Origin: Pelagibacteraceae bacterium AG-414-E02
Lineage (GTDB): Bacteria; Pseudomonadota; Alphaproteobacteria; Pelagibacterales; Pelagibacteraceae
DNA length: 64,000 bases
Assembly: GCA_003214615.1 (NCBI GenBank)
Contig: QCLK01000005.1
Location: 62,001 to 126,000 of the forward strand
Direction of reading: 5' to 3'
The notes beneath the pieces are model-generated. The model saw only the letters and a list, made by a program, of their open reading frames with translations, did no database searches and had not been told where the DNA came from. This document shows, one piece after another, positions 35,175-51,262 of the stretch; the stretch's first letter is position 1; each line of letters begins with the position of its first letter. The position numbers and the translations under genes are program-made.

Positions 35175-37217
35175 ATGTCTAAGAGAAAAAATAAAAAAAG
35201 AAGAAAAAAGAATAAAAAAAGAAGAAAAAAAGTAAAAAAAATAAAAAAAAGAAAAAATAAAAAGACAAAAAATTTAGAATCAAAAGATCTAATTTTTAAA
35301 GTACCAAAAAAGTGGTCCAATAATGCATATGCTGATAAAAATGAGTATGAAAAAAAATATAAATTATCAATTAAAGATAATGAGGGATTCTGGAAAAAAG
35401 AGGGAAAAAGAATAGATTGGATTAAACCTTACACAAAAATAAAAGACGTAAAATATAGTAAAACCGAAGTTAAAATAAAATGGTATTATGATGGAACACT
35501 TAATGCATCAGCAAATTGTATTGACAGACACCTAAAGAATAAAAAAAATAAAACAGCAATTATCTGGGTCGGCGATGATCCAAAAGATTCCAAACAAATA
35601 AGCTACAAAGAACTTCACAAAAAAGTTTGCGAAACTGCAAATGGATTGAAAAAACTTGGTATCAAAAAAGGTGATAGAGTAACTATCTATTTGACTATGA
35701 TTCCGGAACTAGCTTTTGTAATGCTAGCATGTGCAAGAATTGGAGCTATTCATTCTATAATATTTGGAGGTTTCTCGCCCGACTCCATAGCTGGAAGAAT
35801 TAATGATTGCCAATCAGATTATATTATTACTGCTGATGAAGGAGTAAGAGGTGGAAAAATTATACCGCTAAAAAAAATAGCAGATGAAGCATTAGAACAA
35901 TGCCCTAATGTAAAAAAATGTGTTGTCGTAAAAAGAACAGGTAATGAAGTTAATTGGATTGAAGACAGAGATGTTTGGTATCACGATATAACAAAAATGG
36001 CTTCGGATAAATGCGATCCAGAAGAAATGAGTGCTGAAGATCCTCTATTTATACTTTACACATCTGGATCTACAGGAAAACCAAAAGGGGTTTTACATAC
36101 TACGGGAGGGTATATGGTTTATGCCTCGATGACGCATCAATATATTTTCGATTATAAAAAAAATGATATTTATTGGTGTTCAGCTGATATTGGTTGGGTA
36201 ACGGGACATAGTTATATTATCTATGGGCCTCTTTCAAATGGAGCCACAACAATAATGTTTGAAGGTGTACCAACTTATCCTGATTTTTCTAGATGGTGGC
36301 AAATTATTGACAAATATAAAGTAAACATTTTTTATACTGCACCTACAGCACTACGAGCTCTTATGAGGGAAGGAGAAGGTCCAGTTAAAAAAACAAGCAG
36401 AAAATCTTTAAAACTTTTAGGCACAGTTGGTGAACCAATCAATCCAGAGGCATGGCTTTGGTATTATAAAATTGTGGGAGATTCACGATGTCCAATAGTT
36501 GACACATGGTGGCAAACAGAAACAGGTGGAATATTAATTTCTCCACAACCGGGTGCAATTGATCTCAAACCAGGTTCAGCAACTAAACCATTCTATGGAA
36601 TTAAACCAGTTATTGTTGATGAAAGAGGAAAAGCTCTTAAAGGAGTATGTAAGGGAAGATTATGTATAGCTCAATCATGGCCGGGACAAATGAGAACAGT
36701 ATATGGTGATCACCAAAGATTTATTGATACTTATTTTTCACAATTTGATGGAAAGTATTTTACTGGTGACGGATGTAAAAGAGATGAAGATGGGTATTAT
36801 TGGATAACAGGAAGAGTAGACGATGTGATTATAGTATCTGGGCACAATTTAGGAACGGCTGAAATAGAAAGTGCTTTTGTGGCTCATCCAAAAGTGGCTG
36901 AAGCTGCTGTAGTTGGTTATCCGCATGATATCAAAGGAAATGGACTTTATTGTTATGTAACATTAAATGCCTCTGAAAGACCTTCTGGAGAATTGGAAAG
37001 AGATTTAAAACTTTGGGTGCGCAAACAAATTGGGGTAATAGCAACACCTGATCTGATACAATTTGCTCCTGCTTTACCAAAGACAAGATCTGGTAAAATC
37101 ATGAGAAGAATATTGAGAAAAATTGCTGCAAACGAACATGATCAATTAGGTGACACAACAACATTGGCTGATCCAACTGTAGTTGATAGCTTGGTTGATA
37201 ATAGAAAAAATAAATAA
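35175..37217 (+). CDS. acs: acetyl-CoA synthetase with Lys/Arg-rich N-terminal extension
   Basis: Activates acetate to acetyl-CoA via an acetyl-adenylate. 680 residues, with an N-terminal stretch of about 33 residues nearly all Lys/Arg/Asn. The AMP-forming signature [42 protein letters not shown] and the C-terminal [11 protein letters not shown] with acetylatable Lys are intact. An upstream CGGGGATA ribosome site, 8 nt before the ATG, supports this start, and I see no in-frame ATG before the conserved KVPKKW region. The basic tail is unusual for Acs and could influence membrane or RNA association. Confidence 0.97.
35190..35232 (+). repeat. tandem 21-22 nt A-rich repeat in acs 5' end
   Basis: AATAAAAAAAGAAGAAAAAAG occurs twice in tandem, with one extra A in the second copy, encoding NKKRRKK twice. 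The run continues in similar A-rich codons ([11 protein letters not shown]). Homopolymer tracts of seven and eight A make slippage plausible. Confidence 0.8.
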
Positions 37218-49151: not shown

Positions 49152-50162
49152 TTATTTTTTATTTCTGACGAGCTCAATTATATATTCTATTGTTTCTGGT
49201 TTAATTTCAGGCAAAACACCATGACCTAAATTAAATATATATGGATAATCTTTAAATATATTAAGATATTTTTCGGTATTTTTTTTTATATTTTCTTTAT
49301 CAGTGAGTAATATTTTAGGATCTAATCCGCCTTGAATTGGTAAACCTTTTAAATTTTCTTTTATCCATTTTGGATCTACATCGTAATCGATGCTTATACA
49401 GTCTGGCTTAACTGTTGCACAAAAATCAACATAACTTTCTCCTATTCCCTTGGGAAAACAAATTACTGGTATTTTTTTTGATTTAACGTGTTCAACTATT
49501 TTTAATATCGGAATATAACAGTAATTTGGAAGTTCTTCTTTAGGTAATAATCCAGCCCAGGAATCAAAAATTTGTATTATATTTGCACCAGCTTCGATTT
49601 GTTTATCAATATGTAGGCATATAAATTCTTCTAATTTTTTCAACAATCTATTATTTAAAAATTTATCTTGGTTAATTTTATTAAAATCAAAACTCTTTTT
49701 TGGAGATTCTTTATTAAGCATATATAATAATAAAGTCCAAGGCGCCCCAACAAAACCGATAAGATTTTTTTCCTTTAATTTATTTTTTACTTTTTCTATC
49801 CCTAAATAAACAGATTGTAATTTCTGAACAAAATCTACACGGTCTGTATTAATTATTTTATCTAAATTTATATCTCCTAAAATTGGACCTATTGCCTTTT
49901 TGAACTCAACCTTTTGACCTAATCCATATGGTATCATTAAAATATCAGAAAAAATTATAGCTGCATCAAGATCATATCTTTTTAGTGGTTGTAGTGTAAT
50001 TTCACAAACTAGATCAGGATTTAAACATAATTTTATAAAATCTGTATTTTTTTTTCTAATTTCTCTAAATTCTGGTAAATACCTTCCAGCTTGTCTCATA
50101 AACCATATAGGTGTGTAAGATGTTTTTTTTTCGTTAATGCACTCAGTTAATCTGTTCTTCAT
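49152..50162 (-). CDS. hemE: uroporphyrinogen decarboxylase
   Basis: Decarboxylates uroporphyrinogen III to coproporphyrinogen III. 336 residues. Signatures: PIWFMRQAGRYLPEFREIR at the N terminus, AAIIFSDILMIPYGLGQ, FVGAPWTLLLYML and DSWAGLLP; the catalytic Arg and Asp are present. It forms the left flank of the large 278 bp gap towards ppsR and is the diagnostic gene for the oriC position in alphaproteobacteria. Confidence 0.98.
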   Translation of the reverse strand: MKNRLTECINEKKTSYTPIWFMRQAGRYLPEFREIRKKNTDFIKLCLNPDLVCEITLQPLKRYDLDAAIIFSDILMIPYGLGQKVEFKKAIGPILGDINLDKIINTDRVDFVQKLQSVYLGIEKVKNKLKEKNLIGFVGAPWTLLLYMLNKESPKKSFDFNKINQDKFLNNRLLKKLEEFICLHIDKQIEAGANIIQIFDSWAGLLPKEELPNYCYIPILKIVEHVKSKKIPVICFPKGIGESYVDFCATVKPDCISIDYDVDPKWIKENLKGLPIQGGLDPKILLTDKENIKKNTEKYLNIFKDYPYIFNLGHGVLPEIKPETIEYIIELVRNKK

Positions 50163-50440
50163 TAATATATTATATAAATAAGTTATTAGTATTATTTAGC
50201 TATGTTAATAGCGGTATTAATTAGTTGTGTACAGTTTATCCATAAAATCTGTTATTAATATATATTATAAATTATTGATTTAATTACATATGTTATATTT
50301 TGTCTTTTTTTATAATAAATTGTTTATATTTTATTAACGTATATAACTTACTTGATTTATTGTTGATTTTTCTTAACAACTTCATTTAATTTTAAAAAAA
50401 ATATGAATAATTTTTTAATCAATAGTTTACTAACAGGATA
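50163..50440. other. oriC: putative chromosomal replication origin (hemE-ppsR intergenic)
   Basis: The largest gene-free gap, 278 bp, lies between divergent hemE and ppsR, the known site of oriC in Caulobacter and the proposed site in Rickettsia. It contains TTATCCATA (50236-50244, one mismatch to the DnaA box), TGTGTACAG just before it (two mismatches, reverse orientation), a perfect IHF consensus AATCAA-N4-TTA on the minus strand (50268-50280), and a run of almost pure A/T (about 50250-50400) suitable for unwinding. Some of the region also serves as promoter for both genes. Only one good DnaA box is visible, which limits confidence. Confidence 0.6.
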
Positions 50441-51262
50441 ATGAACAAGATTTACCAAGTTTATCAAGTATCTGATTCAACTGGAGAAACACTAGATAGG
50501 ATTTTTTTAGCCTTAAAAGCTCAATTTTCTAATTTTGAGTGTAAGACTATCCACTACTCTTTTACACGAACTAAAAATCAAATAGACAAAATTATATTCA
50601 ATTCTAAATCAGAAAATAATGTAATAATTTTATATACAATCGTGGATAATGATCTAGCCAAATATATAGATGTTGAAGCAAAAAAAAATAATATTCCTTG
50701 TTTTGAAGTTTTGGGAAATCTAATTTCTGATTTTTCTAAATTAATCAAACAAGAAGCAAGTAGAAAACCTAGTGGGCAGCATGCTTTAGATAAAGAATAT
50801 TATGATAGAATAGAAGCAGTACAATTTACCATGTCCCATGATGATGGAAAAATAGTATCGGATCTTGATAAATCAGATGTTATTTTAGTAGGAATAAGCA
50901 GAACTAGCAAAACTCCCACTTCAATTTATTTAGCAAATAGAGGTTATAAAGTTTCGAACATACCAATTATTTTAAATAAAAATTTACCTAAAGAACTTAT
51001 AGAAAGTTCTAAAAAAACTTTTGTTGTTGGTCTCGTTTGCGATGTAAATAGATTAATAGATGTAAGAAGAAATAGAATTCAATCTATGAATGAAGATAGA
51101 TCCGTAAATTATACAGATGAGGTTGAAATTTTTAATGAGGTAGAAAATTCTAAAAAAATATTTAAAAAAAACAACTGGCCCATTATAGATGTAACAAGAA
51201 AATCAGTTGAAGAAACAGCAGCGTCAATAATAAAAACATTGGATATTTTAAATTCTAGATGA
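50441..51262 (+). CDS. ppsR: pyruvate,phosphate dikinase/PEP synthase regulatory protein (DUF299)
   Basis: A bifunctional kinase/pyrophosphorylase acting on PPDK or PEP synthase; 273 residues. N-terminal YQVSDSTGETLDRIFLALKAQF and P-loop VGISRTSKTPTSIYLANRG are the DUF299 markers. It is the RP001 homologue, the usual gene beside alphaproteobacterial oriC. AGGA lies just upstream of its ATG; the stop overlaps maf (ATGA). Confidence 0.95.
   Translation: MNKIYQVYQVSDSTGETLDRIFLALKAQFSNFECKTIHYSFTRTKNQIDKIIFNSKSENNVIILYTIVDNDLAKYIDVEAKKNNIPCFEVLGNLISDFSKLIKQEASRKPSGQHALDKEYYDRIEAVQFTMSHDDGKIVSDLDKSDVILVGISRTSKTPTSIYLANRGYKVSNIPIILNKNLPKELIESSKKTFVVGLVCDVNRLIDVRRNRIQSMNEDRSVNYTDEVEIFNEVENSKKIFKKNNWPIIDVTRKSVEETAASIIKTLDILNSR

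Follow-up and report, generated by a model that had tools for sequence, protein, structure and literature searches.

The hemE-ppsR locus and its conservation

The window analysed here is a 64 kb stretch (C5:62001-126000) of the Pelagibacteraceae (SAR11) genome G000, an assembly of 1.14 Mb in 11 contigs that is 86.6% complete. Within it, hemE and ppsR (COG1806) diverge from either side of a short gap, the features of which are collected in Table 1. Beyond ppsR lie maf, aroE, coaE and the gene for a DnaQ-type exonuclease, and on the hemE side are hemH, a UPF0093 gene and rho. The order hemE, gap, ppsR-maf-aroE-coaE-dnaQ given in a first-pass annotation was borne out, both flanking genes matching the expected protein families. 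The gap is richer in AT than the genome, its GC content comparing with 24-36% along the window. Elsewhere in the window, a long ORF resembling acyl/acetyl-CoA synthetases (35175-37217) opens with an unusual run of ~30 lysines and arginines, which may mean that the start codon is misassigned or that the protein has a genuine basic extension.

Table 1. Features in and around the hemE-ppsR gap (positions in the window)
Feature	Position	Strand	Sequence	Basis or remark
hemE, left flank	49152-50162	minus		PF01208
Gap, predicted oriC	50163-50440			278 nt, 15% GC; skew in complete relatives and fixed gap length
AT-rich stretch adjoining hemE, candidate unwinding region	50163-50182			AT only; low column conservation
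TAG/TAT trinucleotide run, DnaA-trio-like	50183-50199	plus	family consensus TAGTATTAGTAATAGG	conserved block
Inverted putative DnaA box beside trinucleotide run	50203-50211	minus	CTATTAACA	TGTTAATaa block conserved, first TGT 97-100%
Tandem degenerate box	50225-50233	plus	TTGTGTACA	positional conservation
Tandem degenerate box (8/9 box)	50236-50244	plus	TTATCCATA	positional conservation
Degenerate putative DnaA box	50250-50258	minus	TTAATAACA	one-mismatch box count
Exact IHF-consensus site	50268-50280	minus	AATCAATAATTTA	same position in 10/13 genus members
Degenerate putative DnaA box	50321-50329	minus	ATATAAACA	one-mismatch box count
Putative DnaA box	50331-50339	plus	TTATTAACG; family consensus TTATTAACA	box count and conserved block
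Family-conserved inverted box position	50361-50369	minus	consensus TGTTAATTA; here AAATCAACA, two mismatches	alignment
Degenerate putative DnaA box	50370-50378	plus	TTCTTAACA	one-mismatch box count
Terminal putative DnaA box	50427-50435	plus	TTACTAACA	5 nt before ppsR start codon
ppsR (COG1806), right flank	50441-51262	plus		PF03618

To place the gap in its family we took 130 SAR11 loci. Some genomes are represented twice, through two collections, and the distinct gap sequences number 105. In all 126 of these loci in which hemE is adjacent, the gap measures 252-294 nt; the 41 gaps that we took from other alphaproteobacterial families are longer, at 305-1064 nt. In genus g9 (L094 in G009, L095 in G022 and L098 in G031) hemE is no longer beside ppsR: on the G009 map hemE lies at 718 kb and ppsR at 140 kb, the former being 32% identical to the window's hemE, and G022 likewise has a distant hemE (32% identity) elsewhere. 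The left neighbour of the g9 gap, read by eye, is the start of rho. Trinucleotide run, inverted box and terminal box all persist in the g9 gap, which is also where the G009 skew turns, so the module is independent of hemE. In the sister family f114, of the same order, no recognisable ppsR was found in 30 genomes (G259-G288), and the origin flank there must therefore differ.

Skew and the location of the origin

GC skew was taken in 20 kb stretches with a 64 kb sampling step in four complete SAR11 relatives (G005, G009, G040 and G063). Cumulative skew reached its minimum at ppsR and its maximum half a chromosome away in G063 and G009, and ppsR fell inside the best interval of a two-arm fit in G005, G063 and G009; the best point for G040 lay ~30 kb off ppsR, a distance below the sampling step. 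The skew check that had been proposed along with the assignment of the gap as oriC thus found the switch at the gap or within sampling error, and the origin was not refuted. At 5 kb resolution, noise in the raw skew prevented the origin from being pinpointed. When gene direction was entered as a covariate, GC skew at codon position 3 did better: its change point lay 1.4 kb from the gap in G009 and 5.5 kb from it in G063. For the contig that carries the window, raw skew has its minimum ~16 kb from the gap, within local noise, and the codon-3 fit is marginally better at a point 16 kb away than at the gap (11.6 vs 10.5). This counts against oriC; since the best point only slightly beats the gap, that contig alone cannot decide the origin.

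Could replication instead start at some other nearby site such as dnaA, which in all the complete SAR11 genomes that we checked is 62-73 kb from the hemE-ppsR gap? Many bacteria initiate near dnaA, and raw skew is noisy across tens of kb. Some records, that of G005 among them, begin at dnaA, which in G005 is not the origin. In the complete relatives, however, the skew does not turn at dnaA, which falls outside the best-fit change points, and no box cluster was found upstream of this genome's own dnaA (G000:C4:81745-83136; L001, L209). On these two grounds dnaA was rejected as the origin, and we regard an origin there or at any other nearby location as very improbable. This is a caution against assuming that dnaA marks the origin in SAR11 records.

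It is similarly hard to credit that the gap does no more than hold the promoters of two divergent genes, hemE and ppsR, with conserved motifs that are promoter or regulator sites. The promoters of these divergent genes must indeed fall within the gap, but the skew switches there, the motifs survive in genus g9 where hemE has gone from the flank, and they are DnaA-box-like with counterparts across the class.

Experiments have established an origin between hemE and COG1806 in Caulobacter, and one is predicted in Rickettsia (PMC1914354); the SAR11 gap therefore belongs to a known origin type. Cori of Caulobacter crescentus is flanked by the same genes and is likewise an AT-rich gap with DnaA boxes and an IHF site (PMC1914354). 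It differs in its length of 404 bp, its TGATCCACA G-boxes and TCCCCA W-boxes and its five CtrA sites (PMC1914354, PMC4285127), whereas the 278 nt SAR11 gap has TTATHMACA boxes and no CtrA was recognised with a Rhodobacterales-based model. The Rickettsia origin shares the flanks and the AT-richness of both genome and gap; it spans 383-396 bp, and its published description includes TTATNCACA boxes as well as CtrA sites (PMC1914354), whereas the SAR11 gap is shorter and mostly without TTATNCACA, the canonical sequence occurring in only 17 of 89 SAR11 gaps and having no match within the window's gap. CtrA sites are not universal in hemE-COG1806 origins, some Wolbachia being without them (PMC1914354). 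One paper is reported to have identified an oriC for Pelagibacter HTCC1062 manually (PMC4033161).

The location of the skew switch, the conservation of the gap, the enrichment and phasing of its boxes and the homology of its modules are direct results of the computation. The earlier claim that the gap is oriC is strongly supported by the skew of complete relatives, by the conserved gap length and box phasing and by the homologous alphaproteobacterial origins. We conclude that the hemE-ppsR gap is very probably oriC in this SAR11 bacterium and an orthologue of the Caulobacter and Rickettsia origins of the hemE-COG1806 type.

An array of AT-shifted putative DnaA boxes

The top 9-mer in 89 non-redundant SAR11 gaps was TTATTAACA, which occurs 118 times where dinucleotide shuffles give 5.3. 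It tolerates substitutions as a DnaA box does: least in the terminal ACA, with A, C or T at position 5 and A or C at position 6. This points to a SAR11 box consensus of TTATHMACA, mostly TTATTAACA, that is AT-shifted from TTATCCACA and that DnaA would be expected to bind. Since an iterated weight matrix never left its seed, we used a one-mismatch rule on TTATHMACA. Sites called in this way average 5.4 per gap, with a minimum of 3, vs 1.5 in shuffles, and stand at set distances from hemE and from ppsR across the 89 gaps. Aligning the gap in relatives had been suggested as a way to find conserved boxes, and the alignment places boxes at fixed positions throughout: the terminal site lies <=10 nt from the ppsR ATG in 80/89 gaps, its ACA is 98-100% conserved, and its commonest form is TTATTAACA (40 gaps). 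The proposal of a minimal origin thus holds for compactness, given the gap lengths above, and fails for the number of boxes.

Six TTATHMACA sites within one mismatch are found in the window's gap, where dinucleotide shuffles predict 1.31 (P=0.001), and under a model trained without its genus the gap is the densest box cluster in the 64 kb. The two tandem boxes (50225-50244) are spaced 11 nt, with family consensus TTTATACAT / TTTATTAACA. The first-pass annotation had instead described a gap with few DnaA boxes, an 8/9 match and a weaker one. Both are present, the former being one of the tandem pair (TTATCCATA) and the latter a 7/9 minus-strand match, TTATTCATA (50402-50410). The 8/9 box is not significant by itself: one-mismatch matches to TTATCCACA number 25 in the window, or ~0.11 expected per 278 nt, so a single such match is no proof alone. 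The gap seemed box-poor because the E. coli consensus was used, while the SAR11 sites are AT-shifted.

The shift is clearest at position 6. Relative to shuffles, boxes with C at this position (C6) are enriched 48-fold and those with A (A6) 7-fold in origins of other families, whereas SAR11 gaps show 17-fold enrichment of A6 and 10-fold of C6. Low-GC origins from other families also favour C6 (34-fold, vs 7-fold for A6), a comparison that comprises only eight gaps, two of which (L325 and L334) carry A6 boxes as well. Raw C6/A6 counts differ at P=6e-9, a value that ignores kinship among the sequences. Because the composition-corrected enrichments differ, the A6 shift in SAR11 exceeds composition, and as a departure from the canonical box it counts against the oriC reading. 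DnaA is present with its box-recognition signature intact; we looked in SAR11 DnaA for a change in box-recognition residues that would explain A6 and saw none, RDHTTV and the neighbouring residues being retained, so no obvious protein change lies behind it.

These intact residues, together with the A6 boxes of L325 and L334, favour an explanation that is compatible with oriC and to which we give an even chance: that A at position 6 reflects AT-mutational drift of low-affinity sites, with the preference of DnaA unchanged. Set against drift are the opposite corrected preferences of SAR11 and other families, the preference for C6 in low-GC origins elsewhere and the difference in raw counts. Tentatively, and with more doubt than belief, we raise the further possibility that SAR11 DnaA switched its position-6 preference from C to A, that the family's origins were rewritten to match, and that they may run without CtrA control. 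If so, SAR11 boxes would escape origin finders tuned to TTATNCACA. We found no description of the SAR11 box variant in the open literature that we searched. DnaA-box evolution under AT pressure becomes directly testable with this family.

A further question is whether a protein other than DnaA, for instance CtrA (TTAA-N7-TTAA), is the owner of the TTATTAACA sites. Enrichment is seen for TTAA-N6-TTAA and TTAA-N7-TTAA pairs alike (z 8.0 and 7.2), at least partly because of box pairs. Against such an owner, spacing 6 is as enriched as spacing 7, and the TTAA-free TTATCAACA, TTATTCACA and TTATCCACA are enriched 16-18-fold. In addition, no protein of this genome or of 12 other SAR11 genomes passed the cut-off of the CtrA model, which was built on Rhodobacterales (best score ~148 bits vs 350). 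CtrA is thus unlikely to own the sites, and a different protein altogether would be a surprise; we retain DnaA as their predicted ligand.

Trinucleotide run, IHF and a proposed mode of opening

Between the AT-rich stretch and the inverted box, positions 50187-50199 read TAG TAT TAT, one extra T, TAG, ending 3 nt from the box, and at least three middle-A trinucleotides therefore stand within ~16 bp of a DnaA box, as expected of a DnaA-trio. The pattern TA[GT]x3 occurs in 48% of the 89 gaps vs 16% of shuffles; 71 of its 79 matches fall in the first 40 nt of the gap, and they are almost confined to one strand. Comparable runs, e.g. TAGTTGTTGTAGTAG followed by GGCC or a CCTGTG-like sequence, occupy the same place in other families. 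The basal unwinding system of Bacillus subtilis likewise has a middle-A trinucleotide run by a DnaA box (PMC8287927, PMC10721633). SAR11 differs from it in that only one clear box stands next to the run, TAG is mixed with TAT and TAA, and Asn187, which recognises the middle base in B. subtilis, is replaced by Tyr. Nearly all SAR11 DnaA proteins that we read carry this Tyr, as do most other alphaproteobacterial ones, and the lack of the trio-reading residue counts against trio unwinding. Trio-reading DnaA residues are not universally conserved (PMC10721633). On the sequence evidence we lean towards SAR11 using DnaA-trio unwinding, with some reserve.

The exact IHF-consensus site claimed earlier turned out to be two, the minus-strand site of Table 1 and another on the plus strand at 50417-50429. 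The latter was rejected as it is not conserved in the genus, and the former does not occur at its position in other SAR11 genera. Complete SAR11 genomes carry three HU/IHF-family genes. Three HU/IHF proteins were tested, their best name matches being HU, IhfA and IhfB, all below NCBIfam cut-offs; the IhfB-matching protein comes from the window's genome.

These elements suggest how the origin might open. DnaA would bind the array of AT-shifted boxes at fixed positions, anchored at the hemE end by the inverted box next to the AT-rich stretch and at the ppsR end by the terminal box. In this genus, the only one where the site was seen, IHF bending near the middle may join the two halves. DnaA-ATP would extend from the inverted box onto the strand carrying the TAG/TAT trinucleotides, and the duplex would then open on the hemE side, where helicase would load.

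Few bacterial groups in the ocean are as abundant as SAR11, for which a compact origin with a family box consensus would supply the correct zero point for peak-to-trough estimates of replication rate from metagenomes.

In many alphaproteobacterial families (L181-L208, L324-L343) we also observed, on the hemE side, a TAG/TTG run followed by a CCTGTG-like sequence and GGGGATT. Those runs have either A or T in the middle, and the DnaA of these families carries Tyr where B. subtilis has Asn187; the two may co-vary.
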